From: Nocardioides luteus
Lineage (GTDB): Bacteria > Actinomycetota > Actinomycetes > Propionibacteriales > Nocardioidaceae
Assembly: GCF_015752315.1 (NCBI RefSeq)
Contig: NZ_JADOVJ010000001.1
Location: 5,448,501-5,512,500 of the forward strand
Reading direction: 5' to 3'
Length of the DNA: 64,000 nt
The notes under the pieces were generated by a model. That model saw only the letters and a program-made list of their open reading frames with translations. It searched no databases and had not been told where the DNA came from. Positions 7,425 through 64,000 of this stretch are shown here, piece by piece. The position numbers and the translations under genes were made by a program. The first letter of the stretch is position 1. Each line of letters begins with the position of its first letter.

Positions 7425-7461
7425 GGGGCCACCAGATGCAACCGAGGAACCGCACTCGAGC

Positions 7462-7509
7462 GCGTCAACCAAAGGTTGACGCATCACGATCGTCAACCTA
7501 GAGTTGACG
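7462..7509. promoter_or_regulatory. Tandem palindromic operators before the methyltransferase
   Basis: Site 1 (7462-7482) has perfect 9-bp arms GCGTCAACC/GGTTGACGC around AAA. Site 2 (7491-7509) has 7-bp arms CGTCAAC/GTTGACG around CTAGA. The centres are 28 bp apart, and the second site ends one base before the GTG start. Confidence 0.65.
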
Positions 7510-7510
7510 T

Positions 7511-8317: not shown

Positions 8318-8348
8318 CCCGACAGTTCCGATCACCTAGGAGAAACGT

Positions 8349-46629: not shown

Positions 46630-48600
<1,971 letters not shown>

Positions 48601-48647
48601 GGCGTCGTGCTTCCTTCGGGGCGGGAGGGGATGGCGGGTGAGGCCGG

Positions 48648-49040: not shown

Positions 49041-50563
49041 CAGAAGAACCCGAGGGCGTCGGGGCTGTAGCTGACGAGCAGGTTCTTGGTCTGCTGGTAG
49101 TGGTCCAGCATCATCTTGTGGGTCTCGCGACCGATGCCGGACTGCTTGTAGCCACCGAAGGCCGCGTGGGCCGGGTAGGCGTGGTAGCAGTTCGTCCAGA
49201 CGCGACCGGCCTTGATCTCCTTGCCTGCCCGGAAGGCCTGCGACCCGTCGCGCGACCAGACGCCGGCACCGAGGCCGTACAGGGTGTCGTTGGCGACCTT
49301 GAGGGCGTCGGCCTCGTCGTCGAAGCCGGTCAGCGAGACGACCGGGCCGAAGATCTCCTCCTGGAAGATCCGCATCGAGTTGTCGCCCTCGAAGACGGTC
49401 GGCTGCACGTAGTAGCCCTCGGCGAGGTCGCCCTCGAGGATGTTCCGCTCGCCACCGGTGAGGACCTTGGCGCCCTCGTCCTTGCCGATCTCGATGTAGG
49501 ACAGGATCTTCTCGAGCTGGTCGTTGCTGGCCTGGGCACCGATCATCGTGGTGTCGTCGAGCGGGTTGCCCTGCTTGATCTTCTCGACCCGGGCGATCGC
49601 GTCGCCGACGAAGTCGGAGTAGATCGAGCGCTGGACGAGCGCACGCGACGGGCAGGTGCAGACCTCGCCCTGGTTGAGGGCGAACATCGTGAAGCCCTCG
49701 AGCGCCTTGTCGTAGAAGGCGTCCTTCTCCGCGGCGACGGAGTCGAAGAAGATGTTCGGGCTCTTGCCGCCGAGCTCCAGGGTCACCGGGATGATGTTCT
49801 GGCTGGCGTACTGCATGATCAGGCGGCCGGTCGTGGTCTCACCGGTGAAGGCGACCTTCGCGACCCGGGGCGAGGAGGCGAGCGGCTTGCCGGCCTCGAC
49901 ACCGAACCCGTTGACGACGTTGAGCACGCCGGCGGGCAGCAGGTCGCCGACGAGCTCGACGAGCTTGAGGATCGACCACGGGGTCTGCTCGGCCGGCTTG
50001 AGCACGACCGCGTTGCCGGCGGCCAGGGCCGGGGCGAGCTTCCAGACCGCCATCAGGATCGGGAAGTTCCACGGGATGATCTGGCCGACGACGCCCAGCG
50101 GCTCGTGGAAGTGGTACGCCACGGTGTTCTCGTCGATCTCGCCGATGGTGCCCTCCTGGGCACGGAGCACGCCGGCGAAGTAGCGGAAGTGGTCGATCGC
50201 GAGCGGGATGTCGGCGGCCAGGGTCTCGCGGACCGGCTTGCCGTTCTCCCAGGTCTCGGCCACGGCGATGGCGGTGAGGTTCTCCTCCATCACGTCGGCG
50301 ATCTTGAGCAGGATGTTGGCCCGCTCCGTCGTCGAGGTCTTCCCCCACGACGGAGCGGCGGCATGTGCGGCGTCCAGGGCGGCCTCGATGTCCTCGGCCG
50401 TGCCCCGGGCGATCTCGGTGAACGGCTTGCCGTTCACCGGCGAGATGTTCTCGAAGTAGGCGCCCTTGACCGGGTCGACCCACTGGCCGCCGATGTAGTG
50501 GCCGTAGCGGCCTTGGACGGTGACCAGCGAGTCGGGCTGGCCGGGAGCTGCGTATACGGTCAT
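49040..50563 (-). CDS. NAD+-dependent acetaldehyde dehydrogenase (ExaC-type)
   Basis: A 507-aa aldehyde dehydrogenase oxidising acetaldehyde, and probably other short aldehydes, to acids. NAD+ region [22 protein letters not shown] (in parts), Glu in [11 protein letters not shown], and the catalytic Cys in [11 protein letters not shown]. It is first in an operon with DUF779 and then acs. An operator cluster lies between it and the divergent GAF regulator. Confidence 0.93.
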
Positions 50564-50598
50564 CGGGAATTCTCCTCAGGCAAAGTCAGGCATTGGGG

Positions 50599-50614
50599 CG
50601 TGATCGTGGTCACA
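50599..50614. promoter_or_regulatory. Crp/GlxR-like site 1
   Basis: CGTGATCGTGGTCACA matches TGTGA-N6-TCACA at all but the first position. It lies 36 bp before the aldehyde dehydrogenase start. Confidence 0.5.
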
Positions 50615-50630
50615 GACGCTAGGAACGCCG

Positions 50631-50675
50631 AGGTTGCAGCCACGTTGCGGAACCGATGCAACGTGAATGCAACCT
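50631..50675. promoter_or_regulatory. Nested double palindrome, operator of the GAF regulator
   Basis: Symmetrical layout: AGGTTGCA-gc-CACGTTGC, a 9-nt centre, then GCAACGTG-aa-TGCAACCT. The 18-bp arms differ only at two spacer bases. It lies midway between the two divergent starts. Confidence 0.7.
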
Positions 50676-50680
50676 TCAAA

Positions 50681-50696
50681 TGTGACCCTCGTCACC
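50681..50696. promoter_or_regulatory. Crp/GlxR-like site 2
   Basis: TGTGACCCTCGTCACC matches TGTGA-N6-TCACA at all but the last position, 13 bp before the GAF regulator start. Confidence 0.45.
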
Positions 50697-50709
50697 AGAG
50701 GAGGTCCGG

Positions 50710-51921
50710 ATGAGCGATACGAAGCAGAGCGCCTCGATGCGCGCAGCCGTGGCGGACTCGTGGCACCGGTCCGCCGCCGCCGGGGTGACCGCGGACGACA
50801 CGTGCGCGCCGATCACCCTCCCCGAGGACCAGCTGCGAGACGTACGTGCCGCCCATCCGCTGGCGCGCGTGTTCCCGCTGCTCGACGACGTGCTCGGGCA
50901 GGCGGCGCGCGACTGCGACGCGATCATGGCCGTCTCCGACGAGGCCGGCCAGCTGCTCTGGGTGTGCGGGGCTCCGGCAGCCCTACGGCGCGCGGAGCGG
51001 ATCGGCTTCGTCGAGGGGAGCAACTGGGACGAACGGCTCGCCGGCACGAACGCACCCGGCCTCGCGCTCCGGCTCGACCGGCCGACCAGTGTCGTCGCCG
51101 CCGAGCACTTCCGGCGCTCGGTCCAGCAGTGGAGCTGCGCCGCCACCCCGATCCACGACCCGGGCGACTCCCGCCTGCTCGGCGTCCTCGACATCACCGG
51201 CGGTGACTCCATCGTGGTGCCCCAGACGATGGCGATGGTGCGCGCCGCGGCCAGGCTCGCGGAGTCCGAGCTCGCGCGCGAGCAGCTGCTCCCGAGGCAG
51301 CCCGAGACCCGGCCCGGCTGGGCGCGCATCGCCGTGGAGACGCTGGGTCGCCAGGACCTGCTGCTCTCGATCGACGACGGCCGTGGCCATCGCGCCCAGC
51401 TGCGGCTCTCGCCGCGCCACAGCGAGATCTTCCTGCTCCTCGCCAGCGCCCCGCGCGGGCTCTCCGGCGACGAGCTCGCCGTCCTGCTCTACGAGGACGA
51501 CGGTGGCTCCTCGACGCTCCGCGCCGAGCTCAACCGGCTGCGCAACCTGCTGGGCGAGGAGTTCCTCGCCTCCCGGCCCTACCGGCTCACCACCGAGGTC
51601 ACCGGCGACTGGCTCGGCGTGGAGGCCCGGCTCGCGGTGGGCGACGTCGCCGGCGCACTCCGCTGCTATCGGGGCCCGATCCTGCCGCGCTCGGTGGCGC
51701 CCGGCGTCGTACGACTGCGGGAGACCCTGGCGCAGCAACTGCGTGCCGCGGTGCTCCAGTCGGGCCAGCCCGACCTCGTCTCGACCTGGACCCGGTCGGC
51801 GTGGGGCGCCGACGACTACGAGATGTGGCTCCGCCTCCAGGACCTGCTGCCGCCCGGTTCCCCGCTGATGGCGCTCGCCGACGGTCAGATCGCCCGGCTG
51901 GACCGCGAGGTGGGTCTCTGA
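50710..51921 (+). CDS. GAF-domain transcriptional regulator
   Basis: A 403-aa regulator resembling AcoR-type proteins but without a sigma-54 ATPase. The N-terminus has VADSWHRSAAAGV, and the GAF-like sensory region spans about 60-190 (DAIMAVSDEAGQLLWVCG; EGSNWDERLAGTNAPGLAL). The C-terminal winged-helix-like region (about 225-300) reads LRLSPRHSEIFLLLASAPRGLSGDELA in parts. Divergent from the acetaldehyde dehydrogenase and immediately followed by an alcohol dehydrogenase; it probably activates both (inference). Confidence 0.88.
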   Translation: MSDTKQSASMRAAVADSWHRSAAAGVTADDTCAPITLPEDQLRDVRAAHPLARVFPLLDDVLGQAARDCDAIMAVSDEAGQLLWVCGAPAALRRAERIGFVEGSNWDERLAGTNAPGLALRLDRPTSVVAAEHFRRSVQQWSCAATPIHDPGDSRLLGVLDITGGDSIVVPQTMAMVRAAARLAESELAREQLLPRQPETRPGWARIAVETLGRQDLLLSIDDGRGHRAQLRLSPRHSEIFLLLASAPRGLSGDELAVLLYEDDGGSSTLRAELNRLRNLLGEEFLASRPYRLTTEVTGDWLGVEARLAVGDVAGALRCYRGPILPRSVAPGVVRLRETLAQQLRAAVLQSGQPDLVSTWTRSAWGADDYEMWLRLQDLLPPGSPLMALADGQIARLDREVGL

Positions 51922-51922
51922 G

Positions 51923-53164
51923 ATGAGCGCCGGAGCCGGAGCCACGACAGCAGTGATCGCCCGCACCCGGGAGGCCCCTCCCCGGCACGAGCCCGTCCCA
52001 CCGACCGCCCCGCTCGACCAGGTGGTGAAGTTTCAGGCACCCGAGGTGGTCTTCGGACCCGACTCCCTCGGGGAGGCGGGCTACGCCGCCGCCCGGCTCG
52101 GTGCCCGGCGGCCGTTCGTCGTCACCGATCCCGGGATCGTCGAGGCGGGCTGGGTCGACGAGCTGCTCCGGCTGCTGCGGGCCGAGGGGCTCGCCCCGGT
52201 GCTGTGGACCGAGGTCACGCCGAATCCCAAGGACCACGAGGTACGCCGCGCCTACGAGAGGTACGTCGAGACCGAGGCCGACGTCATCGTGGCGATCGGC
52301 GGCGGCTCCTGCATGGACGCCGCGAAGGGCGTCGCGGTGCTCTCGGGCAACGGCGGCGACATCCTCGACTACGCCGGCATCGACCAGATCGCCCGGCCGA
52401 TCCCGCCGATGCTGATGATCCCGAGCACCTCCGGGACCGGGGCCGACGTCTCCCAGTTCTGCATCGTCACCGACACCGACCGCCGGGTGAAGATCACGAT
52501 CATGGGCCGGGCGCTGGTGCCGGACGTCTCGATCACCGACCCACGGCTGCTGACCACGATGCCGGAGGCGCTCAACGCCGCGACCGGCCTGGACGCGCTG
52601 ACCCACGGCATCGAGTCGTACGTGTCGCTGGCGCACAACCCGCTGGCCGACGGGCACGCGATGGCCTCGGTCGCCCTCGTCTGCCGCCACCTGCGCTCGA
52701 CCATCACCGACCCCGGCGCGATGGAGCACCGCGCGATGATGGCGCAGGCGAGCCTGCAGGCCGGACTGGCCTTCACCAACGCGATCCTCGGGGCGACCCA
52801 TGCGATGAGCCACCAGGTCGGCGGGCTGCTCGACGCCCCGCACGGGGTGGTCAACGGCGTGCTGCTCCCGCACGTGATCCGCTACAACGCACGCTCGGTC
52901 CCCGAGCGGTTCGTCGGCCTGGCCCGGGCGGCCGGGCTGCCGGTCGACGGCGTCCCCGGGTACGTCGCGGCCGAGATGCTGGCCGACCACGTGCGACGCC
53001 TGGCCGACGACGTCGGCGTGCCCCGAGGTCTGCGTGATCTCGGGGTGACCGACACCGATCTCGACACCCTGTCGGTGACCACCCTCGACGACGCCTGCCT
53101 GACGACGAACCCACGACCGGCGAGCCGCACCGAGATCCACGCGCTCTTCCGGGAAGCCCTGTGA
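51923..53164 (+). CDS. Iron-containing (group III) alcohol dehydrogenase
   Basis: A 413-aa NAD(P)-dependent alcohol dehydrogenase. IAIGGGSCMDAAKG (in VAIGGGSCMDAAK) is the nucleotide motif. The metal ligands are Asp and His in GLDALTHGIESYVS, then His in ATHAMSHQVGG and DAPHGVVNG. It probably oxidises ethanol or a related short alcohol to feed the aldehyde dehydrogenase. It starts one base after the GAF regulator's stop and is followed at 10 bp by the sensor kinase. Confidence 0.9.
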   Translation: MSAGAGATTAVIARTREAPPRHEPVPPTAPLDQVVKFQAPEVVFGPDSLGEAGYAAARLGARRPFVVTDPGIVEAGWVDELLRLLRAEGLAPVLWTEVTPNPKDHEVRRAYERYVETEADVIVAIGGGSCMDAAKGVAVLSGNGGDILDYAGIDQIARPIPPMLMIPSTSGTGADVSQFCIVTDTDRRVKITIMGRALVPDVSITDPRLLTTMPEALNAATGLDALTHGIESYVSLAHNPLADGHAMASVALVCRHLRSTITDPGAMEHRAMMAQASLQAGLAFTNAILGATHAMSHQVGGLLDAPHGVVNGVLLPHVIRYNARSVPERFVGLARAAGLPVDGVPGYVAAEMLADHVRRLADDVGVPRGLRDLGVTDTDLDTLSVTTLDDACLTTNPRPASRTEIHALFREAL

Positions 53165-53174
53165 AGGCAGTCCC

Positions 53175-54542
53175 GTGAGCGCCCCCGACCTGGCAGCACT
53201 GACCGGCGTACGTTCCGGCAAACGCTCCTACTACCGCGCGTTCCTGCGCTCCGACGAGCGGATGCAGCAGGCCGTACGCGCCATGGACTCGATCTCCCGG
53301 GCGCTGGTGCGCACGGTGGAGGGTCCGCGGGCGCTCCTGGAGGAGGTGGCCCGCGCGGCCGCGGTACACCTCGCCGCGGAGTGGACGATCCTGGCGCTGG
53401 CCGACGGCCACCTGACGGGAGCGCGGCCGCGGTTCATCGTCGTGGACCAGGACGGCCGGGTGGTGGGCGACGAGGAGGACCTCCCCGCCGTCGTACGCCG
53501 CGAGCTCGGCGCGATCCGGGCCGGCCATGCCACCGGGGCGCCGGGGCCGGCCCGCTGGGTGCGGGTGCCGATGACGCTGGAGAGCGTCATGATCGGCAGC
53601 CTGGTCGGCCTCCACGGGCTCGCGGACGACCCCGAGCCCGGAGACCTGTCGGTGCTGCGGATCCTGGCCAACGAGGCCGCGGTGGCCCTGCACACCTCCG
53701 AGCAGTACCAGGCCGGGCTCGCCCAGCACCGGCGTGCCCAGCGGCTCTACGACGAGGTCGGCGCCCGGGAGCGGGACCTCGAGCAGCGGACCCGAGAGCT
53801 GCGCGAGGCCGAGGAGCGGCTGCTGGTGGCCCGGCAGCGCGAGCTGGTCGACCACGAGCGCCACCGGATCGCGCGGGAGCTCCACGACAGCGTGACCCAG
53901 TTCGTGCTCTCGGCCGGGATGTCGGTCGAGGTCGCGCGGGGCGAGACGGAGGACCTGGGGCCTGCCGGCGAGCGGATCACCGAGCTCCTCAACACCGCCA
54001 AGCAGCTCACCCAGGACGCCGTGGAGCAGCTGCGCCGGGCGATCTACGCGCTGCACCAGCCGCATCGCGACACGGTCTCCTCGCTGCCGGAGCTGCTGCA
54101 CGAGGTGGCCGAGCACCATCGCCCGCACCTGGACGTGTCGGTGCGGGTCGAGGGCGAGGTGTGCCCGATGCCCGCGGAGGCCAAGCACGACATCGCCCGT
54201 GCGGTCGGCGAGGCGCTCTTCAACGTGGCCATCCATGCCGAGGCCACCCAGGCCGTGCTCCGGCTCCGCTACCGCAAGCACGAGCTCTACGTCGGCGTCG
54301 CCGACGACGGCCGCGGCGACCCCGGCCTGCTCGCCCGGAAGCTGCGTCTCGAGCGCGGCGCCTCCATCGACGGCCGCCACCGGGGCTTGGCGAACATCGA
54401 GACCCGGATCAGCGAGCTCGGCGGCACGGTCGCGTTCCGCCGCTCGCACCTCGGCGGGGTCCGAGTCGAGCTCCGGGTGCCGCTGCCGGTCGTGGACCGC
54501 GGCCGAGGAACGATCTGCGGGCTCATCGAGGACCCGCAGTAG
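53175..54542 (+). CDS. GAF sensor histidine kinase (NarL-system type)
   Basis: A 455-aa cytoplasmic kinase. GAF-like domain at about 45-175, coiled coil at about 185-230, HisKA_3 with phospho-acceptor His237 (RIARELHDSVTQFVLS), and HATPase_c (VGEALFNVAIHAEA; VADDGRGDPG; HRGLANIETRISELGG). No membrane helix, so it senses an internal signal. It is the partner of the response regulator 19 bp downstream. Position in an alcohol/mycofactocin cluster resembles MnoS of Mycobacterium smegmatis methanol metabolism (from memory, not verified). Confidence 0.9.
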   Translation: MSAPDLAALTGVRSGKRSYYRAFLRSDERMQQAVRAMDSISRALVRTVEGPRALLEEVARAAAVHLAAEWTILALADGHLTGARPRFIVVDQDGRVVGDEEDLPAVVRRELGAIRAGHATGAPGPARWVRVPMTLESVMIGSLVGLHGLADDPEPGDLSVLRILANEAAVALHTSEQYQAGLAQHRRAQRLYDEVGARERDLEQRTRELREAEERLLVARQRELVDHERHRIARELHDSVTQFVLSAGMSVEVARGETEDLGPAGERITELLNTAKQLTQDAVEQLRRAIYALHQPHRDTVSSLPELLHEVAEHHRPHLDVSVRVEGEVCPMPAEAKHDIARAVGEALFNVAIHAEATQAVLRLRYRKHELYVGVADDGRGDPGLLARKLRLERGASIDGRHRGLANIETRISELGGTVAFRRSHLGGVRVELRVPLPVVDRGRGTICGLIEDPQ

Positions 54543-54561
54543 CCGCTTCGAGGAGGAACCC

Positions 54562-55260
54562 ATGACCATGCTCAGCCCACCCCAGGCGGTCCCCGCCCCA
54601 GCGGTCCCGGACCGGACCACGGCCGGCATCGACGTACTGCTGGTCGATGATCACGCGATCGTGCGGCAGGGTCTGCGCTCGATCCTGGAGCGCGAGCCCG
54701 GGCTGCGGGTCGTCGCGGAGGCGGCGACGGCGGCCGAGGCGCTCGCCCGGGTCAACAGCGCCCGCCCGGACATCGTGCTGCTCGACCTGAAGCTCTCCTC
54801 GTCCTCGGACGCCGAGGGGCTCGAGCTCTGCGCGGCGCTCACCCAGCGCCATCCGGAAGCCCTGATCCTGGTGCTGACCACGTTCCTCGACGAGCAGCTG
54901 GTGATGCAGGCGATCCGCGCCGGCGCCCGCGGCTACGTCGTCAAGGACGTCGACACCACCGGGCTGGTCCGGGCGATCCGGGACGTCGCGAGCGGCGGCA
55001 GCGCCTTCGACGCGCGCTCCGCGGCGGCGATGATCCGTGGCGTGAACATGCCGGTGACCAGCGACGACTCCGAGCTCACCAGCCGCGAGCTCGAGGTGCT
55101 GGAGCTGCTCGCCCACGGGTTGTCGAACCGCGCCATCGGCCACCGGCTCTACATCTCCGACACCACCGCGAAGTTCCACGTGGGCAACATCCTGCGGAAG
55201 CTGGGCGTCAGCCGCCGGGCCGAGGCGGTGTACGAGGCGTCCAAGATGGGACTCCTCTGA
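54562..55260 (+). CDS. NarL/LuxR-family response regulator
   Basis: A 232-aa regulator. The receiver domain (about 24-145) has VDDH, phospho-acceptor Asp75 (IVLLDLK) and the switch Lys in GYVVKD. The LuxR helix-turn-helix (about 165-228) reads LTSRELEVLELLAHGLSNRAIG. GAGGAGG precedes the ATG. Phosphorylated by the adjacent kinase, it probably controls the alcohol dehydrogenase genes; the MnoR counterpart is the closest known analogue (inference). Confidence 0.92.
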   Translation: MTMLSPPQAVPAPAVPDRTTAGIDVLLVDDHAIVRQGLRSILEREPGLRVVAEAATAAEALARVNSARPDIVLLDLKLSSSSDAEGLELCAALTQRHPEALILVLTTFLDEQLVMQAIRAGARGYVVKDVDTTGLVRAIRDVASGGSAFDARSAAAMIRGVNMPVTSDDSELTSRELEVLELLAHGLSNRAIGHRLYISDTTAKFHVGNILRKLGVSRRAEAVYEASKMGLL

Positions 55261-55285
55261 CCGACGGCCCGACGGCCGAGCGAGA

Positions 55286-55891
55286 TCACGGCACCGGCAG
55301 GACCGTGCGGTCCCAGGTCGTGTTCACGATGATCGCGGCCGAGGCGTAGAGCGCCACCACGGCGTCCAGGATCAGCACGTAGCCGGCGGTCTTGCCGAGA
55401 CCGGCGCTGCCGAGGAACGACCCGAAGGCCGCGAGGTAGAAGACCCCGGCCAGGAGCACGAAGATCACGATCGTGGTGGTGTTGGTGCGCAGCGCCGCCA
55501 GCAGCATGTAGGACGTGAACAGCGCCCAGGCGAGCAGGAACATCCCGGTGATCGCGGCGCCGTCCGCGGTCACCATCGGTCCGTAGAACTGCACCAGCAG
55601 CGCATAGGAGAGCCAGAAGCCGGCGTACGCGGTGAACACCAGGGCCGGGAAGGTCTCGCCACGCCGGTAGTGGACCAGACCGGCCAGGAGCTCGGTCGCG
55701 AAGCCCAGCGCCAGCGCGAGGGGCAGCACCGCCGGCAGGGCGGCCGCGTCCACGAGTCCCGACATCACGCTGGACAGCACGAGCGCCGAGATCCCGAAGC
55801 TGGCCAGGCCGAGCGGGAACGGGTCGCCCCAGGCCGTCGGGGTGGTGCCTTGCACCGTGGGCACCTCTGCATCGATGGATGTGTTCGTCAT
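55286..55891 (-). CDS. Acetate uptake permease (SatP/AceTr family)
   Basis: A 201-aa membrane protein with six hydrophobic helices. The N-terminal PFPLGLASFGISALVLS corresponds to the NPAPLGL region of the YaaH/SatP/GPR1 family, and a central TYAGFWLSYA-like FTAYAGFWLSYALL is diagnostic. It imports acetate and related acids by proton coupling. Its product is the substrate of the acs-encoded enzyme in the same cluster. GGAGGAACTG precedes the ATG. Confidence 0.9.
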   Translation of the reverse strand: MTNTSIDAEVPTVQGTTPTAWGDPFPLGLASFGISALVLSSVMSGLVDAAALPAVLPLALALGFATELLAGLVHYRRGETFPALVFTAYAGFWLSYALLVQFYGPMVTADGAAITGMFLLAWALFTSYMLLAALRTNTTTIVIFVLLAGVFYLAAFGSFLGSAGLGKTAGYVLILDAVVALYASAAIIVNTTWDRTVLPVP

Positions 55892-56134
55892 CAGTTCCTC
55901 CAGGGAGTGAGCCGTGGTCCGGGCTGGGCTACGGTCCTCTCAAGGTAGTGACGTACGACACACCGACAGACCCACCGAGTGGGCGGTCGCACACCTGCCC
56001 TCGGGTAGGCCTCCCACCCGGTTGCGTGCGGCCGACGGACAGGTCGAACCCGCCTGTGACCAGGCCTGACGCGGGGTCGGCCGGCGTGGCGAGCGTCCGC
56101 GTCGTCGATGGACAGGTCGACCGGCGAGGAGCGA

Positions 56135-57055
56135 TCAGCGGTCGGTGTCGACGACGAGCCAGCCACCGTGGTGCTCGACGACCCGGTACGGGTGTCCCGA
56201 GGCCTCGCCCCACGCGGCGAGGTCGTCCAGCGACACCGTCCGGACGTGTCCCCAGGTCTCGTCGGGCTCGTCCTCGAGGGGTACGGCGATGACGACTCTG
56301 CGACGCGCGACCCGGATCGCCTCGGCGACCGCCCGGTCGCCGAGGCTCGGCTCGATGTGCTCGAGCAGGTGGATCAGCAGCACGTTGTCGGCGGCGTCGG
56401 CGGCCCACGGCAGCCGGGTGGCGTCGGCGGCGCGCGTGGCGAGCGGGACCTTCAGCCGGGAGGCGGCGGCGCGCAGCAGCGTGACGGTGCCCGCGGAGAG
56501 GTCGGAGGCGGTCACGTCCCGGCCCGCGGCGGCCAGCCGCAGCGAGAGGAACCCGAAGCAGCAGCCGACCTCGAGGACGGAGCCACGCGCCAGCTGCTGC
56601 TCGACGAAGCGGTAGACGGGGGCGTACTCGGCGACGGTCCCGTGACCCGCGGGAGCGGGGCCGGGGCGCTCCAGCGCCTCTTCCACGTGGCGCAGGGTGT
56701 TGCGGTAGAACGCGGCCCAGGCCTGCCCCGGGTCGGGGGCGCTGCTGATCACGACGCCGGTGAAGAGCCGCTCGAACAGGTCCGGACCACGCAGCCAACC
56801 GGGCTGGAACAGCTCCTCGGCCAGCAGCCCGGAGAGGTCGTCGTCGATCTGCTCCGCCCGCAGGCAGTGGACCAGGTGGACCTGGTGGCCCTCGCGGTGG
56901 ACGTCGAAGTGGCGGGTGCGGATCGTCCCGAGATGGCGACGCGGCCGAGGGCCCTGCCAGGCCCGGACGCTGACCACCTCGTCGCGGTAGACCCCTGCCT
57001 CGGGGCCGGGGCGCAGAGCGTCGATCACCCCGAGCTCGCCGGGCGGGGTGGTCAT
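56135..57055 (-). CDS. mftM: Mycofactocin-associated SAM methyltransferase MftM
   Basis: A 306-aa methyltransferase. An N-terminal region of about 150 residues (HLGTIRTRHFDVHREGHQVHLVHCLR in parts) precedes the SAM fold: VLEVGCCFGFLSLRL (about 160-174), ASDLSAGT, and LLIHLLEHIEPSLGDRA. MftM methylates the glucose chain of mycofactocin in Mycobacterium. Assignment rests on the overall pattern plus the nearby mftF, mftE, mftD and methanol dehydrogenase. ATG overlaps the VWA gene stop by four bases (ATGA). Confidence 0.8.
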   Translation of the reverse strand: MTTPPGELGVIDALRPGPEAGVYRDEVVSVRAWQGPRPRRHLGTIRTRHFDVHREGHQVHLVHCLRAEQIDDDLSGLLAEELFQPGWLRGPDLFERLFTGVVISSAPDPGQAWAAFYRNTLRHVEEALERPGPAPAGHGTVAEYAPVYRFVEQQLARGSVLEVGCCFGFLSLRLAAAGRDVTASDLSAGTVTLLRAAASRLKVPLATRAADATRLPWAADAADNVLLIHLLEHIEPSLGDRAVAEAIRVARRRVVIAVPLEDEPDETWGHVRTVSLDDLAAWGEASGHPYRVVEHHGGWLVVDTDR

Positions 57056-58572
57056 CGCCCGGCCGACATCGTCTGGGTCACGTTGTCCAGCCCACGCAGG
57101 TTGCGGACGACCTGGACCTTGTCGCACCACTCCGCGTACTCCGGCAGGTCGCAGCCGCCGAGCGCCCACGAGTAGCGCGGCTCGGGGGTCAGCCAGATCG
57201 TCGACCGGGCGCGCCGGGTGAGCTCCTCGAACGCGGCGAAGCCCGGATCCCTGCCGTTGCCGCGCCCGTCGCCGAGGATCACCAGCGTGGTCCTGCGGTT
57301 TACCGCCGAGCCGAACTGCTCGAGGAACTGCTCGAACGAGGAGCCGTAGTCCGAGTCGGCGTCCACGTCGAGCACGCCTCCGGCCGGGAGTCCGGAGAGC
57401 ACCAGGGACAGCGCGTCCTCGATCCGGTGCTCGGCGAACAGGTCGGTGATCTCGACCAGGTCCTTCACGAACGCGAACGACCGCACGGAGGTGGCCACCG
57501 ACTGCAGGCTGTGCAGCAGGTGCAGGGTGAAGCGGGCGGTGGAGCGTACGGACAGGGAGACGTCGCAGAGCACGAGCAGCCGTGGCCGGTCGTGCGCCTT
57601 GGCGACGGTGACCGGCCGGAACGGCACCCCGTCGTACTTCATGTTGGTGCGCATCGTCCGGCGGCCGTCGACGATGCCGCGGGCGGCGACCGTACGCCGC
57701 GGGCGCGGGGCTCCGTGGAGCTTCCTGAGCAGCCGCCGCAGCGACTCCTCCAGCGCGGCCCGGTCGTGCTCGGCGACGGTCTCGGCCTGGGCGGCCTGGA
57801 TCTCGCGCGACTCGATCTCGCGCTCCATGCTCATCAGCCGCTCGAGGTGGTCGCGGATCCGCTCCGGCAGCGTGGCCAGCCACGGCGAGAGGGCCTTGCG
57901 GAGCTCCGCGAGGGCGTCGTCGTCGTCGATGCCGCTGTCTGGCTCGCGCTCCTCGAGCCAGCTCAGCAGCGCGATCTCCTCCTGCACCGAGAGCTCGGTG
58001 TCGAGCTGCATCCCGGCGTCGCGGATCAGGTCGCCCGGGTTGCCGGGGTTGTGCATCCGGCTCGTGGAGAGCTGGACCCGCGCGGCCTCACCGGGGCTGG
58101 ACTTCGGGTCGTTGGAGAGGACGATCTCGTCGGTGAGGGCGGCGATGTCGATCTTGTTCGCCTCCTGGTGGAGGTTGTAGCGCTGCGCCATGTCCTCGGG
58201 CTTGAAGTACTCCTTGATGTCGTCCGGCTTGCCGTGGCTGTGCCCGTCCTCCGGCACCTCGCCCGGCTCCTCGGAGAGCGTGAAGTCGGTCAGCTGTCCG
58301 TCGTCGGAGAGGTCGTCGTGGGTGTGCCCGTGCTCGTCGGGCTCCTCGACGACCGGCCGCAGCCCGAAGAACCGGTCGAAGACCAGGTCGAAGGTGTCCA
58401 GGTCGCGGCGGTCCTTGACCAGGCTGGCGGTCAGCGCGGCGTGGAGCAGGTGGCGCTGCTCGAGCACCCCGGGCTGGGCGACCGCATGCATCGCGTCGAT
58501 CACCTCGGCGGTGCTCACGCGTACGCCGTAGAGCCGGAGCAGCCGGATGAAGCGGTGCAGTGCGGTCTCCAT
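57052..58572 (-). CDS. VWA-domain protein (CoxE-like), MoxR partner
   Basis: A 506-aa protein. The N-terminal helical part includes acidic and His-containing loops (DEHGHTHDD at about 79-87; EDGHSHGKPDD at about 108-118). A helical middle region follows. The C-terminal von Willebrand A domain (from about 330) carries a MIDAS motif D337-x-S339-x-S341 (LCDVSLSVRS). MoxR/VWA pairs act as chaperones that activate or insert metal into enzymes (for example CoxD/CoxE). The gene lies between the MoxR ATPase and mftM, 19 bp after moxR. Confidence 0.88.
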   Translation of the reverse strand: METALHRFIRLLRLYGVRVSTAEVIDAMHAVAQPGVLEQRHLLHAALTASLVKDRRDLDTFDLVFDRFFGLRPVVEEPDEHGHTHDDLSDDGQLTDFTLSEEPGEVPEDGHSHGKPDDIKEYFKPEDMAQRYNLHQEANKIDIAALTDEIVLSNDPKSSPGEAARVQLSTSRMHNPGNPGDLIRDAGMQLDTELSVQEEIALLSWLEEREPDSGIDDDDALAELRKALSPWLATLPERIRDHLERLMSMEREIESREIQAAQAETVAEHDRAALEESLRRLLRKLHGAPRPRRTVAARGIVDGRRTMRTNMKYDGVPFRPVTVAKAHDRPRLLVLCDVSLSVRSTARFTLHLLHSLQSVATSVRSFAFVKDLVEITDLFAEHRIEDALSLVLSGLPAGGVLDVDADSDYGSSFEQFLEQFGSAVNRRTTLVILGDGRGNGRDPGFAAFEELTRRARSTIWLTPEPRYSWALGGCDLPEYAEWCDKVQVVRNLRGLDNVTQTMSAGR

Positions 58573-58591
58573 GTCGGGCCTCGATCCCGCC

Positions 58592-59785
58592 TCAGACCGG
58601 ACGCTTGCGGGTCGACGGGAACGCCCGGGTCCCCTGGCTGGTGGACACCGCCGGGGCCGTACGCGGCCCGGTGCCGCCGGCGCCGCCGTAGTAGCCCGCG
58701 TTGTGCCGGCCGGGCTGGTCCTTCGCCTTCCGCTCGGCGCGGCCGTCGACGTCGTCCTCGACACGGTCCTCCGCAGCCGGGGCGTGGGAGTGGCCATGAC
58801 CGTGGCCGTGCCCGTGACCATGGCCGTGCAGGTGGTCGGGCACCTCGGCGTTCGGGTCGACCAGCCGCGGCAGCGCGTCCATGACCCGCTTCAGGTCGCG
58901 CTCGTACTTCACGACCACGTTGAGCGTCGTGGAGAGCACGTCGGCGGTGAGCTCCTCGACGCCGAGCACCGCCAGCGTACGAGCCCAGTCGACGGTCTCG
59001 GAGATGCTGGGCGCCTTGCGCAGCTCGAGCTCACGGATGCCGCGGACGATGTCGACGAGGCGGGCCGCGAGCGAGTCGGCGAGACCGGTCTCCTTGGACC
59101 GGATGATCTCCAGCTCACGGACCGCGTCGGGGTAGTCGAGGAAGAGGTGCAGGCAGCGGCGCTTGAGCGCGGCGGAGAGGTCGCGGGTGTTGTTCGAGGT
59201 CAGCACGACGTACGGCATCGTCTTGGCAGTCACCGTGCCGACCTCGGGGATGGAGATCTGAAACTCGGCGAGCAGCTCGAGCAGCACCGCCTCCAGGGCC
59301 TCGTCGGCCCGGTCGACCTCGTCGATGAGGAGCACGACCGGGGTGTCGGAGTCGATCGCCTCGAGCAGCGGCCGGGCGGCCAGGAAGCGCTGCGAGAAGA
59401 ACACCGAGTCCTGCTTGGCGATCCGCTCGACGGCCTCGTTCAGGTCGGCGGCGTCCTCGACGACCTGGCCGATCTTCTCGCGCAGGATCTGGGTGTAGAG
59501 CAGCTGCTTGCCGTAGTCCCACTCGTAGAGCGCCTTGGTCTCGTCCTGACCCTCGTAGCACTGCAGCCGGATCAGGCGCCGCCCGGTCGCGGTCGCCAGG
59601 CTCTCCGCCAGCTGGGTCTTGCCGACCCCCGCCGGGCCCTCGAGCAGGACCGGCTTCTCCAGCCTGGTCTGCAGGAACACCGTGGTGGCGAGCCGGTCGT
59701 CGGCGAGGTAGCCGCACGCCGCCAGCTGGGCGCGGGTGTCCTCGACGTCGGTGAAGCCCTGGGTCGGTTCGGTGGTGGTCGACAC
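58592..59785 (-). CDS. MoxR-family AAA+ ATPase with poly-His tail
   Basis: A 397-aa AAA+ chaperone. Walker A GPAGVGKT (about 50-57), Walker B LLIDEVD (about 152-158), sensor-1 VLTSNNTRDLS, Arg finger region LKRRCLHLFLDYP. The C-terminal extension carries HLHGHGHGHGHGHGHSH (about 318-334), an obvious metal-binding tract, and then a disordered Gly/Ala tail. GTG start (VSTTTEPT) is chosen because GAGGAG lies five bases upstream; a GTG two codons earlier overlaps it. It probably works with the VWA protein on the methanol dehydrogenase (inference). Confidence 0.9.
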   Translation of the reverse strand: MSTTTEPTQGFTDVEDTRAQLAACGYLADDRLATTVFLQTRLEKPVLLEGPAGVGKTQLAESLATATGRRLIRLQCYEGQDETKALYEWDYGKQLLYTQILREKIGQVVEDAADLNEAVERIAKQDSVFFSQRFLAARPLLEAIDSDTPVVLLIDEVDRADEALEAVLLELLAEFQISIPEVGTVTAKTMPYVVLTSNNTRDLSAALKRRCLHLFLDYPDAVRELEIIRSKETGLADSLAARLVDIVRGIRELELRKAPSISETVDWARTLAVLGVEELTADVLSTTLNVVVKYERDLKRVMDALPRLVDPNAEVPDHLHGHGHGHGHGHGHSHAPAAEDRVEDDVDGRAERKAKDQPGRHNAGYYGGAGGTGPRTAPAVSTSQGTRAFPSTRKRPV

Positions 59786-59819
59786 GTGCACTCCTCGAGG
59801 TGATGGATGGGGCCGAGGC

Positions 59820-59858
59820 GGCGGGCCCGGCTGGTGGTCTCAGCCGGCCGGGCCCGCC
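59820..59858. terminator. Terminator between methanol dehydrogenase and moxR
   Basis: Perfect 12-bp arms GGCGGGCCCGGC/GCCGGGCCCGCC with a 15-nt loop that itself contains a small CTG/CAG pair, 26 bp past the dehydrogenase stop. Read-through may supply the downstream chaperone genes. Confidence 0.75.
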
Positions 59859-59883
59859 ACGCTCGTGTGATCAGCTGGGCCGA

Positions 59884-61176
59884 TCAGCCGAGCAGGTCGT
59901 CCAGGTCGCCGTTCAGGCAGTGGTCGACCACCGGACGTACGGTCTCGAACGTGCACTCCTTGGCGTTGCCCGGCGTGCAGGCGTCACCGAGGACGTGGTT
60001 GGTGATCCGGTCGACGTCCGAGTCGTCGCCGACGATCTCCTTGGCGTTGGCGTAGTAGGCCGTCGGACCCTGGCCGAGCCGGTTCTTCGAGTACGTGTCC
60101 TGCTTGACGTCCACGAAGCGCTCGGTGATGCCGACGTCACGCAGCAGCCGGATGGCCGCGGCGAGGGCCGCGTCGGCGGCCTGCACGTCGGTCATGCCGT
60201 GGGTGTCGACGCCCATCGCGCGAGCGATGTCGGCGAACCGCTTGTAGTGCGTGGGCATGTTGAACGCCCAGACCCGCGGCAGCGCGATCGCGTTGTTGAG
60301 GCCGTGGTGGGTGTCGTAGAAGGCGCTCACCGCGTGGCTGATCGAGTGGATGATGCCGAGGCCGCCGGAGTTGAACGCCTGGGCGGCGATGTACTGGGCG
60401 TACATCATCCCCTCACGGCCACCGAGGTCCTGGCCGTTCCAGACCGCCTGGCGCAGGTTCTCCGAGGTCAGCTTGATCGCGTGCAGCGCGTTGCCGAGCG
60501 ACGGCTGGAAGTTGATCCGGGAGACGTACGGCTCGCTGGCGTGCGCCAGGACGTCGAAGCCGCACTGCGCGGTGTAGTCGACCGGGCAGTCGTAGTAGAG
60601 CACCGGGTCGTCGATCGCCAGGCTGGCGACCGAGGCGTCGTCGAAGGCGACGTACTTGTGCGGGTTGTCGGGGTCCGTGGTCGTGTCGGTGATGACGTAC
60701 GCCCAGGACGTCTCCGAACCGGTGCCGGCCGTGGTCGAGACCGCGATGTGCGGCGGGTTCTTCGGGTTCTCGGACATGTTGAAGCCCTCGAACTCGTTGA
60801 CGTTGCGGCCGTCGTGGGCGACCGAGATGCGCGCGCCCTTACAGGCGTCGTGCGACGAGCCACCGCCGATGGAGACGAACGAGTCGCACTCGTTCTCCTG
60901 GTAGAGCTTGACCGAGTCCATGACGTTGTAGTCCTTGGGGTTGGACTCGACCTTGTCGTACACGACGACCTCGAGGCCGTGGTACTTCATCGACTCGACG
61001 ATCTTGGTGACGATGTCCGTGCCGCGCAGGCCGGACGTCATCACCAGGGTCTTGCGGAAGCCCATCTTCAGGGCCTCGGGACCGATCATCTCGTGAGCGC
61101 CGGGGCCCATGAGGGCGCGCGGGAAGGGGTGGAACTCCTTGATGGGGAATGGCTTGAGTAGTTCGTCGACCTGCAT
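59884..61176 (-). CDS. mno: NDMA-dependent (mycofactocin-linked) methanol dehydrogenase
   Basis: A 430-aa group III alcohol dehydrogenase of the Mno/MDO (ThcE) type, which oxidises methanol and other short alcohols to aldehydes. It keeps a tightly bound nicotinamide cofactor and needs an external acceptor, physiologically mycofactocin. Nucleotide motif SIGGGSSHDACKGAR (about 102-116). Metal ligands Asp208, His212 (FDVLAHASEPYVS), His277 and His291 (IIHSISHAVSAF; THHGLNNA). ATG with GGAGG seven bases upstream. Flanked by mftF on one side and MoxR/VWA/mftM on the other. Confidence 0.93.
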   Translation of the reverse strand: MQVDELLKPFPIKEFHPFPRALMGPGAHEMIGPEALKMGFRKTLVMTSGLRGTDIVTKIVESMKYHGLEVVVYDKVESNPKDYNVMDSVKLYQENECDSFVSIGGGSSHDACKGARISVAHDGRNVNEFEGFNMSENPKNPPHIAVSTTAGTGSETSWAYVITDTTTDPDNPHKYVAFDDASVASLAIDDPVLYYDCPVDYTAQCGFDVLAHASEPYVSRINFQPSLGNALHAIKLTSENLRQAVWNGQDLGGREGMMYAQYIAAQAFNSGGLGIIHSISHAVSAFYDTHHGLNNAIALPRVWAFNMPTHYKRFADIARAMGVDTHGMTDVQAADAALAAAIRLLRDVGITERFVDVKQDTYSKNRLGQGPTAYYANAKEIVGDDSDVDRITNHVLGDACTPGNAKECTFETVRPVVDHCLNGDLDDLLG

Positions 61177-61194
61177 GGCAAACCTCCGTTGATG

Positions 61195-61210
61195 TGTGAC
61201 GCTCAGCACA
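61195..61210. promoter_or_regulatory. Weak Crp/GlxR-like site before the methanol dehydrogenase
   Basis: TGTGACGCTCAGCACA matches TGTGA-N6-TCACA with one mismatch, 19 bp before the start. This close position would suit repression. Confidence 0.3.
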
Positions 61211-61277
61211 TTAGGTACGGCGAAAGGGCCGCGAACAGGCGAGGAACGGGAAACAGCCCGGCCCGGGAGGGGCCTAC

Positions 61278-62684
61278 CTACCCGTTGGGAGAGGTGCCTC
61301 CCTGGCCGGTCTTCTGGCCAGGTCGGCGCGGCAGCAGACAGGTCACCGAACGGGCTCTGATCGCGCCGGCCCAGAGGCCTGCGCCGTACGCCATGTCGTC
61401 CAGCCGGCGGGCCAGCGGACGGTATCTCGTGCCGGGGTTGTCGACCCGGGCGACGACCACGTCGACGACCAGGGAGGCCACCAGGGCACGCCGGACGAGG
61501 GCGCTGCGCGGTGCGAGGAGCACGGTCAGCGGCCACCAGTGCCGCAGCAGCAGCGCGGCCTCCTGGCGCACCGTCCAGCCGAGGCCCTGAGCGCACAGCT
61601 GGACGGCGAGCCGGTCGCGTCCGGGGGTCTCGGGCAGCCGTCGGCGCAGCGAGAGGAGGCCGTAGGCGATCCCGGCGGCGGCGACCGGGAGCGACCACCG
61701 GCGATGCACGAGGAGCGCGGCGGCCGTGGCCGCCATGCTCGCTGTCATCACCGCCGGGGCGCCCTTGCGGCCGTGGCGGACGGCCAGGTCGGCGCCGCCG
61801 GTGCCGTAGAGGTACTTGCGGCCCAGCCAGCCGCGGACGGTCGTGCGGGTGTCGTGCCAGGCGACCTGGTCGGGGTCGTAGCGGACCACCTCGCCGGCCT
61901 CGACCAGCCGCCAGACCAGATCGACGTCCTCGCCCACCCGCATCGTCTCCTCGAACCCCTTTCCGAGCCGTTCGGTACGTCCCACCAGGCACGCGCTGGG
62001 CAGCCAGCCAACCGCGGCACCCGGGCGTACGACGCAGGCGCGGGTGCCGAGGGCGAGGGAGGAGTCGTCCTCGTCGAAGCGCTCGAACCACCGCGGTTGC
62101 CGGCTGCGCGCGCGGCTGCGGACCAGCGGCGCGACCAGGGCGACGCGGCTGTCGGCGAAGTGGCGGGAGAGGTCCAGGAGCGTGCTCGCCTCGACCGTGA
62201 CGTCGGAGTCGACGAAGGCGACGTAGGCGGTGCGCACCGCGCGCAGGCCGGCGTTGCGGGCACCCGCCGGGCCGAGGTTCACCGGCAGCCGCAGGAGGTG
62301 GGCGCCGTGGCGGCGGGCCACCCGCTCGACGGCGTCGGGGTCGAGCGAGGCGTCGTCGACGACGATGCGGTGGAGGCCCTTCAGCGGCCCGAGCGCGCGG
62401 TCGAGCTGCTCGGGCCGGTCGCGCACCGGGATCACGACGGTCAGCTCCGCCGGCTCCACGCCGGCCCCGTCGAGCACGGGATCGGCCAGGTTGCCGTCGA
62501 CGAGCCTGGCGGCGAGCGCGTCGGTCGCCGCGTCGACCACGGTGACCTCGCCGTCGGCCAGCAGCGTCAGCGCCGCCTTGGTGAGCCGGACGGCACGCAG
62601 CGGCGAGCCGCCGACGAGCAGGCGACCGTCGATGCGGCGTACGTCGTCGCGGATGCGGGCGCGGAAGCCGATCGGGTATCTCAC
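61278..62684 (-). CDS. mftF: Mycofactocin glycosyltransferase MftF
   Basis: A 468-aa GT2 glycosyltransferase that adds glucose units to the redox core of mycofactocin. The GT-A domain (about 80-290) shows LTVVIPVRDRPEQLDRAL, VDDASLDPDAVERVARR and VAFVDSDVTVEAS (DxD-like), then GEDVDLVWRLVEAGE and a Trp/Arg loop. The C-terminal part is membrane-associated (hydrophobic from about 320). GTG start. Follows mftE after a 13-bp gap, in the usual mft order. Confidence 0.92.
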   Translation of the reverse strand: MRYPIGFRARIRDDVRRIDGRLLVGGSPLRAVRLTKAALTLLADGEVTVVDAATDALAARLVDGNLADPVLDGAGVEPAELTVVIPVRDRPEQLDRALGPLKGLHRIVVDDASLDPDAVERVARRHGAHLLRLPVNLGPAGARNAGLRAVRTAYVAFVDSDVTVEASTLLDLSRHFADSRVALVAPLVRSRARSRQPRWFERFDEDDSSLALGTRACVVRPGAAVGWLPSACLVGRTERLGKGFEETMRVGEDVDLVWRLVEAGEVVRYDPDQVAWHDTRTTVRGWLGRKYLYGTGGADLAVRHGRKGAPAVMTASMAATAAALLVHRRWSLPVAAAGIAYGLLSLRRRLPETPGRDRLAVQLCAQGLGWTVRQEAALLLRHWWPLTVLLAPRSALVRRALVASLVVDVVVARVDNPGTRYRPLARRLDDMAYGAGLWAGAIRARSVTCLLPRRPGQKTGQGGTSPNG

Positions 62685-62697
62685 GGGCGGGAGCGGT

Positions 62698-63393
62698 TCA
62701 TCCCACGGCCACGCCGCCGGGCGCCAGCACGTCCATGGTGGTCTGCTCGATCATCGTCGTGAGCGCCTCCGCTCCCTCCGCCGCCGTGGCGCCCGTCGGG
62801 TCGCCGAGGACGCCGTTGGCGGAGACCGCCGCGACGCCGCCCGCCCGCATCGCCGGCAGGATCTCGGCGAGCGGACGGGTGTCGCCCGGCTCGGCCAGGT
62901 CCAGGCGTACCGACTCCGGACGCAGATGCAGCATCAGCGACGTCTCGGTGCGGCCGGCGTGCAGGTCGTAGTCCTCCGTGCGGCACGGCAGCCAGCAGGC
63001 CGACTGCCGCTCGAACGCGAGCTGGTTGACCGCGCTGGTCAGCGCGGCGGCGTTGCCACCGTGGCCGTTGACGAGCACGACCCGCTCGGCCCAGGTGCGG
63101 GCCGAGCGGACCAGCTCGACCACGACCAGGTGGAGCGCGTCGCTCCCGATCGACACGGTGCCGGCGAAGGACTGGTGCTCGCCGCTGGAGCCGATCGCTA
63201 TCGGTGGCGCGACCCAGCTCTCGACACCCTGCTCCGCGAGCCGGTCGGCCACCCCCTGCGTGACCGCCGACGCGATGGTGGTGTCGGTGTCGAACGGCAG
63301 GTGCGGTCCGTGCTGCTCCAACGAGCCGACGGGCACCAGCAGGACCGTGCCCCGGCGCACCTGCGGCCAGGTGGCGTCACCCAGTGCGTACAT
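62698..63393 (-). CDS. mftE: Mycofactocin maturation peptidase MftE (creatininase family)
   Basis: A 231-aa metal-dependent amidohydrolase that cleaves the modified Val-Tyr product from the MftA peptide. Creatininase motifs: GSLEQHGPHLPFDTDT with Glu26, His28 and Asp35 as expected ligands, VNGHGGNAAAL, and HAGRTETSLML. The ATG start gives MYALGDATWPQV. The start region overlaps the mftD stop by 17 bp, showing tight coupling. Confidence 0.93.
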   Translation of the reverse strand: MYALGDATWPQVRRGTVLLVPVGSLEQHGPHLPFDTDTTIASAVTQGVADRLAEQGVESWVAPPIAIGSSGEHQSFAGTVSIGSDALHLVVVELVRSARTWAERVVLVNGHGGNAAALTSAVNQLAFERQSACWLPCRTEDYDLHAGRTETSLMLHLRPESVRLDLAEPGDTRPLAEILPAMRAGGVAAVSANGVLGDPTGATAAEGAEALTTMIEQTTMDVLAPGGVAVG

Positions 63394-64000
63394 GGAAGCC
63401 GTCCGGGACGATCAGATGCTCCGGCCGCAGCTCGGCGACCGACCCGACCGCGAGCCCCCGCAGCGCCGAGTCGATGCCACCGCTGAGCACGTCGAGGACG
63501 TTCTCGACCCCGGCCTGGCCGTTGGCCGCCAGGCCCCACAGGTAGGCCCGTCCGATCAGCACCGCCTTCGCACCGAGCGCGAGCGCCTTGACGACGTCGG
63601 AGCCGCGGCGTACGCCTCCGTCCATCACCACGTCGACCTGCTCGCCGACGCGGTCGGCGATCGGCTTGACCATCCGGATCGCGGCCGGGGTGCCGTCGAG
63701 GTTGTTCCCGCCGTGGTTGGAGACCGAGATGCCCGCGACCCCGGCGTCCACGGCACGGAGCGCGTCGTCGACCCGGCACACGCCCTTGAGGACGAACGGC
63801 GTGCCGCTGATCTGGTGCCACTGCTCGCGCATCCAGGCGACGTCGTCCCAGGTCGGCGGCGGGGTGGTCATCCACTCGTAGTAGGCGCCGAAGAACGTCG
63901 GCGCGCTCCCGCCCGGCGGGGCGAGGTTGGGCGCGGTGAGATCGGGGAAGGAGCCCGTACGCCCGAACTGCCACGCCCACCGAGGCCGGGCCGCGACCTG
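63377..64000 (-). CDS. mftD: Mycofactocin dehydrogenase MftD, N-terminus cut by window edge
   Basis: The C-terminal 207 codons of an FMN-dependent alpha-hydroxy-acid-oxidase-type enzyme. TPFVLKGVCRVDDALRAVDAG holds the FMN Lys, GISVSNHGGNNLDGTPA the catalytic His and Asn-Asp region, and VDVVMDGGVRRGSDVVKALALGAKAVLIGR the phosphate site. MftD deaminates oxidatively the AHDP intermediate to pre-mycofactocin. The reading frame is open to the window edge; mftA, mftB and mftC presumably lie beyond it. Confidence 0.93.
   Translation of the reverse strand, partial: QVAARPRWAWQFGRTGSFPDLTAPNLAPPGGSAPTFFGAYYEWMTTPPPTWDDVAWMREQWHQISGTPFVLKGVCRVDDALRAVDAGVAGISVSNHGGNNLDGTPAAIRMVKPIADRVGEQVDVVMDGGVRRGSDVVKALALGAKAVLIGRAYLWGLAANGQAGVENVLDVLSGGIDSALRGLAVGSVAELRPEHLIVPDGFHVRTG

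Follow-up and report, generated by a model that had tools for sequence, protein, structure and literature searches.

A His-rich MoxR ATPase and a CoxE-like VWA protein accompany the nicotinoprotein methanol dehydrogenase of Nocardioides luteus and related actinomycetes independently of mycofactocin

The stretch of DNA analyzed here, referred to as the window, comprises 64,000 nucleotides (positions 5448501-5512500) of the 5.82-Mb Nocardioides luteus chromosome. On its minus strand lie a gene for an N,N-dimethyl-4-nitrosoaniline (NDMA)-type nicotinoprotein methanol dehydrogenase (MDH) and, directly downstream, genes for a MoxR-type AAA+ ATPase and a VWA protein, the MoxR/VWA pair considered in this work. 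From the open reading frame (ORF) list and scans with Pfam and NCBIfam, these were placed in a run that reads mftD (partial), mftE, mftF, MDH, MoxR, VWA, mftM, the mft genes being those of mycofactocin. Gaps of 101, 98, and 19 bases separate mftF from MDH, MDH from MoxR, and MoxR from VWA, respectively, while VWA and mftM overlap by 4 bases. An earlier reading made from the sequence alone (the sequence-only reading) had listed these genes in this order, and the list proved correct, with all of the named genes on the minus strand and with the family scores given here and further below. Counts for named loci and proteins refer to the best 80 of 243 relatives obtained with MDH as the query, all of which are at least 88% identical. 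The features of the dehydrogenase and the pair are as follows.

59884..61176, minus strand: NDMA-type nicotinoprotein methanol/alcohol dehydrogenase (Mno/Mdo type), probable client of the pair; TIGR04266, 668 bits (cut-off, 625), with the Pfam domains of the iron-containing alcohol dehydrogenases (Fe-ADH)
58592..59785, minus strand: MoxR-type AAA+ ATPase with a His-rich C-terminal tail; Pfam AAA_5, 53.6 bits (cut-off, 22)
58784..58834, minus strand: 17-residue His/Gly tract HLHGHGHGHGHGHGHSH, MoxR residues 318-334
58592..58690 (approximate bounds), minus strand: C-terminal MoxR end carrying a (Q/R)GxRSF-plus-basic motif, to which 76 of 77 named MoxRs have a motif-like match
57052..58572, minus strand: CoxE/NorD-like VWA protein; Pfam VWA_CoxE, 112 bits (cut-off, 26.4)
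58318..58332, minus strand: VWA His loop 1 (H81, H83, and H85), all three residues invariant across the 77 named VWAs
58234..58242, minus strand: VWA His loop 2 (H111 and H113), both residues invariant across the 77 named VWAs
57550..57564, minus strand: metal ion-dependent adhesion site (MIDAS) motif DVSLS, VWA residues 337-341 (D337, S339, and S341)

MoxR and VWA were found directly downstream of MDH, on the same strand, in 77 of the 80 named loci, and VWA lies downstream of MoxR in every one of the 77 that have MoxR. The three exceptions are two loci in which MDH is within ~200 bases of a contig end (L016 and L082) and a second MDH copy in Pseudonocardia acidicola (L054). The latter organism carries two MDH copies, one with the MoxR/VWA pair (L038) and one without, and its pair could act in trans. 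The enzyme of N. luteus BAFB (L010) is 100% identical to MDH over 429 residues. A similar neighborhood in mycobacteria, mentioned in the sequence-only reading, was present in Mycolicibacterium sphagni (L074), with the order MDH-MoxR-VWA. As the 80 named loci are close relatives, evenly drawn samples of genomes from the family (100 genomes) and the phylum (246 genomes) were added. Absences in these samples are read from the best E value per genome and from ranked bit scores, which cover weak matches in part.

In the family sample, TIGR04266 matched above its cut-off in 11 genomes, and the same 11 had a MoxR of at least 369 bits, always adjacent to MDH. MftC was above its cut-off in 21 of the 100 genomes; 10 of these lacked MDH, and none of the 10 had a MoxR above 331 bits. 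In the phylum sample, the MDH type was identified in 13 of the 246 genomes, a count that includes a fragment at a contig end (G184), two genes that matched in two pieces (G227 and G152), and G163, in which MDH is at a contig end and MoxR is not readable. MoxR adjoins MDH in 12 of the 13; its score is 315 bits in G156 and no lower than 356 bits in the other eleven. MftC was above its cut-off in 28 of the 246 genomes but in only 5 of the 13 with MDH, and MftD was above its cut-off in the same 5; the 23 MftC genomes without MDH had no MoxR above 321 bits. The remaining 8 MDH genomes were without MftC and MftD above cut-off, and in 7 of these MoxR is beside MDH, the contig of the eighth ending at that point. 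Mno/Mdo-type dehydrogenases thus occur in genomes without MftC or MftD above cut-off, namely, G163, G216, G195, G065, G130, G227, G152, and G184; these mft-free relatives score below the TIGR04266 cut-off, at 360 to 536 bits, or 102 bits for the fragment in G184. Fisher tests, to be taken as a guide only because the genomes are related, gave p = 2e-17 (phylum) and 7e-15 (family) for MDH versus MoxR and p = 0.009 (phylum) for MDH versus MftC.

The sequence-only reading had proposed a survey of the pair with the dehydrogenase versus with the mycofactocin genes alone, and in the survey reported here the pair tracked MDH (11 of 11 in the family and 12 of 13 in the phylum). Because of these two distributions the pair is considered tied to MDH, with mycofactocin not needed: it follows the dehydrogenase, independent of mycofactocin. 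MDH is therefore very probably the client of the MoxR/VWA pair, and there is good support for a dedicated activator of this known class of enzyme. A role for the pair in the mycofactocin electron path, also raised in the sequence-only reading, is not supported, as 8 of the 13 phylum MDH genomes were without MftC/MftD and 7 of them keep the adjacent MoxR.

MoxR has matches in the PDB that include CbbQ and NorQ. Its Walker A residues K56 and T57 are kept in 76 of the 77 named MoxRs and in all 18 further MoxR sequences; by analogy, a hexamer and ATP hydrolysis are predicted for this protein. The 17-residue His/Gly tract pointed out in the sequence-only reading is indeed present at residues 318-334. 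In all 77 named MDH-linked MoxRs the tail spans 30 residues or more and contains no fewer than 5 His (medians, 98 residues and 10 His), the tails of L033, L072, and L081 having been read from the match since the choice of start had shortened those MoxRs. HG repeats make up 53 of the 77 tails, and the other 24 take other forms, such as HHHH runs in Streptomyces and HDHTHHHHHHH in Mycolicibacterium; the His composition of the tail is thus kept while its sequence changes. A simple DNA repeat was rejected as the source of the tract, as the 12-base unit has 81% matches and mixed codons, and 24 of 77 tails are not of the HG type. Given the tail in all 77 named MoxRs and the five VWA His residues identical in 77 of 77, the His segments are not due to chance. 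As a control, ORFs of at least 150 residues from 20 loci were scanned for at least 6 His per 25 residues; 7 of 267 reached this density, and 5 of the 7 were the MoxR, VWA, or NicO of MDH clusters. The (Q/R)GxRSF-plus-basic end, which closes the protein behind the His tail, is a possible docking peptide.

Among the deep MDH-linked MoxRs, 10 of 11 have 4 to 12 His per 25 residues near the C-terminal end. In the next-closest MoxRs, those of the L106-L116 group (G198 and G209, of the same score group, were left out), the ends are short and hold 0 to 2 His, and the tail is present in 0 of 11; it was also present in 0 of 2 examined paralogs of the N. luteus genome, and CoxD-like MoxRs lack it, with 0 His in their ends. 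The absence of the tail from the related L106-L114 MoxRs indicates that it marks the dehydrogenase-linked type.

The VWA protein was confirmed to have the two His loops and the intact MIDAS motif noted in the sequence-only reading (H81/H83/H85, H111/H113, and DVSLS at 337-341). Of the 77 named VWAs, 76 have D337, S339, and S341, and 76 have D435; the first three residues also occur in all 17 further VWAs. In an alignment of 28 sequences (A1), these four and S407 are all invariant; S407 and D435 probably complete the MIDAS. In mft-free VWAs the His clusters are smaller and lie in the same putative linker at shifted positions, that of L117 being weak. An AlphaFold2 model of the VWA protein (mean pLDDT, the predicted local distance difference test score, of 63.6) comprised helices over residues 1-69, a low-confidence stretch over 71-118 that holds the His loops, further helices, and the VWA domain, and the stretch around His loop 1 is probably disordered according to this model. 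When the model was used as a Foldseek query, chain G of the NorQD complex 9qhe was found at rank 13 (E = 1.5e-4), with higher ranks occupied mostly by generic VWA domains; chain G was taken as NorD because the NorQ chains are 268 residues. A sequence search of the PDB with the VWA protein gave no match.

In MDH itself, D208, H212, H277, and H291 are conserved without exception in an alignment of 88 sequences that includes its own, and from the alignment we take them to correspond to the metal ligands of Fe-ADH enzymes. The metals of the Amycolatopsis enzyme are reportedly zinc with magnesium. The fold of MDH is shared by structurally solved members of the Fe-ADH family, among them lactaldehyde reductase and NAD-dependent methanol dehydrogenases.

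Several known systems resemble this pair. Like NorQ/NorD, the pair combines a MoxR ATPase with a VWA partner that has a C-terminal VWA domain with a MIDAS and that may, going by the low-confidence model, have an N-terminal domain and a linker before it. NorQ/NorD serve FeB insertion into nitric oxide reductase (PMC13036017, PMC9976466); a finger of the VWA protein enters the pore of MoxR, and a linker on which iron insertion depends has been proposed to be twisted by ATP hydrolysis (PMC13036017). Residues of the MIDAS are essential there, and their suggested role is to bind the client (PMC9976466). The differences are that the client here is an Fe-ADH-type nicotinoprotein, that MoxR has a long His-rich tail, and that the VWA linker has His loops. 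CoxD/CoxE are similar in that the VWA protein belongs to Pfam VWA_CoxE and the MoxR/VWA pair is beside an oxidoreductase, and the CO dehydrogenase maturation pair MSMEG_0748/MSMEG_0751 of M. smegmatis was found to interact by coimmunoprecipitation (PMC12657314); however, CoxD-like MoxRs are elsewhere in the tree and have no His tail, and the conserved neighbor here is MDH, not a CO dehydrogenase type. The CbbQ/CbbO Rubisco activase is likewise a MoxR plus VWA system acting on a metabolic enzyme, with CbbQ among the PDB matches noted above, although its client differs. The pyrroloquinoline quinone (PQQ) methanol dehydrogenase is a quinoprotein unrelated to the Fe-ADH-type MDH. Its MoxR-MoxC/L helpers, said to support calcium insertion (PMC12657314), are MoxR/VWA helpers of a methanol dehydrogenase that offer a parallel with a nonhomologous client. 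The Mno operon of M. smegmatis, msmeg_6242-6238, has the same dehydrogenase type under MnoSR regulation (PMC11303327), and we infer that msmeg_6241 and msmeg_6240 are MoxR and VWA, respectively.

On the analogy with NorQD, we put at about 0.55 the probability that the MoxR/VWA pair is an ATP-driven activator dedicated to the neighboring nicotinoprotein, with the His segments bringing its divalent metal. As in the NorQ/NorD analogy, the pore of a MoxR hexamer would grip the VWA protein, and the VWA protein would hold the dehydrogenase via its MIDAS site and N-terminal domain. ATP hydrolysis would then pry the dehydrogenase open, and the His-rich MoxR tail and His-rich VWA linker would bring the divalent metal to D208, H212, H277, and H291. 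That the pair travels with the enzyme and has His-rich segments of a metal-holding kind suggests that it probably loads or repairs the metal center of MDH, and metal delivery by the pair is likely. Of the metal-loading maturation machine of the sequence-only reading, the tie of the pair to MDH has thus held, while the evidence for metal handling is circumstantial, consisting of His segments that are absent from the nearest relatives and of a NicO gene in some sister clusters.

The sister clusters are those of the deep loci, for which the gene calls were crude and some wrong-frame ORFs were taken. VWA follows MoxR in 10 of the 11 fetched deep clusters with a readable MoxR (L129 is cut at MDH and holds only a distant second MoxR/VWA pair). 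NicO (PF03824) was the next recognized gene after VWA in four of the seven readable mft-free clusters, as follows (Pfam scan on the L119 protein).

L119:5253-6023, minus strand: NicO after VWA
L120:14061-14810, plus strand: NicO after VWA
L126, about 8209-8955, minus strand: NicO after VWA
L128, about 995-1738, minus strand: NicO after VWA

The cluster NicO protein has an HxxxxDH motif of the kind typical of nickel/cobalt transporters and a His-rich loop; it matches NCBIfam models weakly, with uptake as well as efflux families among them. NicO is within ~15 kb of MDH in the mft-positive deep genomes G237 and G076, and no match to it was found in G163, G152, G053, or G156. In G076 (L130:8942-12176, minus strand), two tandem VWA genes lie between MoxR and mftM. 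Molybdenum hydroxylase-type genes with their own CoxD/CoxE-like pair were observed beside MDH in several of L118-L123 (domains scanned in L119), and the hydroxylase perhaps performs the next step, aldehyde oxidation.

The tail-less pair of L106-L114 (e.g., L110:9180-9935, minus strand) adjoins a conserved protein in which residues of a metal-binding type (H, HD, H, and D) are kept. This HD-type neighbor was found in 9 of the 11 loci of the L106-L116 group (not in L115 or L116), and of three scanned, two reached the Pfam HD cut-off and the third was just short. The HD-domain-like protein is a possible new client of the tail-less pair, and the wider MoxR/VWA family may serve several metal-binding enzymes. 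In a tree of MoxR proteins, the CoxD-like MoxRs of the deep loci form a separate group; a single clade for all MDH-linked MoxRs was not supported.

A number of observations weigh against the proposed metal-bringing activator. In the tree the MDH-linked MoxRs do not come together as one clade: the deep ones fall into two groups, and that of L117 (G156) is on a very long branch. This G156 MoxR has no His tail, and its cluster has a weak VWA match (140 bits) with a poor His segment. G130 (L123) has MDH and a tailed MoxR with no adjoining VWA, an unrelated ORF being present at about 7450-8560 on the minus strand. The MoxRs and VWAs of the mft-free L119-L121 have 4 His each per 25 residues and do not reach the threshold of the control. 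NicO was not found in three of the seven mft-free clusters (L121, L123, and L127) and is far from the MDH cluster in the N. luteus genome. The structure model of the VWA protein is, as its mean pLDDT indicates, poor overall. Finally, we know of no such MoxR/VWA helper for other Fe-ADH enzymes, and as these have the same fold, metal loading alone leaves the need of MDH for a helper unexplained.

The explanation that survives best beside a metal-bringing activator is that MDH is remodeled by the pair so that its tightly bound NAD(P)(H) can be loaded, exchanged, or set free, or so that a dead-end state is released, in the manner of CbbQO and Rubisco, with the His segments serving to regulate or tether. 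The linkage to MDH fits this equally well, nonexchangeable NAD sets the mycofactocin-linked dehydrogenases apart (PMC5264612), and a MoxR/VWA pair thought to remodel, not to insert metal, has been named (PMC12657314). As the invariant VWA His loops, the His tail kept despite sequence change, and the NicO neighbor would be left unexplained, we regard such remodeling as possible but doubtful. A further possibility, which we consider unlikely, is that nickel or cobalt is the native metal of the dehydrogenase and that the MoxR and VWA His segments, with a dedicated NicO in some lineages, form a MoxR-powered metal insertion machine. The nickel systems of urease and hydrogenase use GTPases with His-rich stretches.

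It is quite improbable that the pair assembles, takes apart, or stabilizes the MDH oligomer with no transfer of a cofactor; MoxR proteins have been described as chaperones of protein complexes (PMC3893208, PMC6987120) and a decamer has been suggested for a related Bacillus enzyme (PMC3602061), but the metal-binding segments would then have no reason. A service to mycofactocin, with MftM or the docking step between cofactor and dehydrogenase as the target of the pair, could be read from the position of the pair between MDH and mftM, the overlap of VWA with mftM, and mftM matches in 69 of the 80 named loci. This explanation is largely refuted by the distribution, given the 8 MDH genomes without MftC/MftD and the 23 of 28 phylum and 10 of 21 family MftC genomes that lack both MDH and an MDH-type MoxR, and no match to mftM was found in the mft-free loci L119-L121, L123, and L126-L129; a part for the pair in mycofactocin biosynthesis or use was accordingly rejected, and we hold it to be very improbable. 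Maturation of a different enzyme of the neighborhood, for example the molybdenum hydroxylase found next to MDH in several of L118-L123, would recall the MoxR/VWA pair linked to CO dehydrogenase (PMC12657314) but is just as remote, since those hydroxylases have their own second MoxR/VWA-type pair, with MoxRs in a separate tree group, and no such hydroxylase was seen by eye among the window genes from 46630 to 64000.

The surrounding genes of the window are listed below.

63377..64000, minus strand: mftD, partial, continuing past the window end; TIGR03966, 322 bits on the fragment
62698..63393, minus strand: mftE peptidase; TIGR03964, 307 bits (cut-off, 172)
61278..62684, minus strand: mftF glycosyltransferase; TIGR03965, 330 bits (cut-off, 280)
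56135..57055, minus strand: mftM mycofactocin oligosaccharide methyltransferase; NF041255, 319 bits (cut-off, 200)
51923..53164, plus strand: Fe-ADH paralog resembling ErcA, in a neighboring plus-strand group; NF041833, 460 bits (below the cut-off of 550)
53175..54542, plus strand: sensor histidine kinase; translation read by eye

The whole mftD match is G000:C1:5511892-5513052 (636 bits; cut-off, 470.85), and past the window the rest of mftD is followed by mftC and then by a short gene that reads as mftA. Each of mftC, mftD, mftE, mftF, and mftM is above cut-off. We take the short gene (L009:14601-14705, minus strand) to be mftA from its ending, which was recognized by eye. On the plus strand, 51923-55260 holds the ErcA-like Fe-ADH paralog followed by an apparent sensor kinase and response regulator, an arrangement that resembles the MnoSR group. 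In M. smegmatis this group regulates the operon msmeg_6242-6238 (PMC11303327), and by that analogy the histidine kinase is perhaps a regulator of the MDH cluster. By eye, 55286-55891 (minus strand) reads like a GPR1/YaaH-type acetate transporter and 46630-48921 (minus strand) like an acetyl-CoA synthetase, which would fit oxidation of ethanol to acetate. No RNA families were found in the window from 48000 to 64000.

The best-scoring named models for MoxR and VWA were the NCBIfam families MadB (NF047784) and MadC (NF047783), respectively. Membership was rejected, as MoxR scored 372 bits against a cut-off of 475 and VWA 293 against 600, and none of the 246 phylum or 100 family genomes had MadB above cut-off; literature searches on MadB/MadC did not find their function. 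The operon msmeg_6242-6238 and its regulation have been described (PMC11303327, PMC6529628, PMC11778925), and Mno/Mdo-type dehydrogenases are required for growth on ethanol, with an Mdo homolog named in PMC11778925. There is no mention of msmeg_6241 in the main text of these three papers, nor of msmeg_6240 in that of PMC11303327 and PMC6529628. Searches of the literature on mycofactocin with MoxR, VWA, or AAA, and on MSMEG_6242, found no job assigned to the pair, an assignment in work on the Rhodococcus enzyme remaining possible; the one paper that names both MoxR and mycofactocin lists them in separate rows of a table of genes. The remark of the sequence-only reading that the job of the pair appears unassigned therefore stands for the literature searched.

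The question on which the pair bears is the activation route of mycofactocin-linked nicotinoproteins. If MDH needs a dedicated activator, two further genes should be supplied when it is expressed in other hosts. If the proposed reading is true, MoxR/VWA machines would gain a client that is probably soluble and easy to assay, along with a His-rich variant for following the route of the metal.

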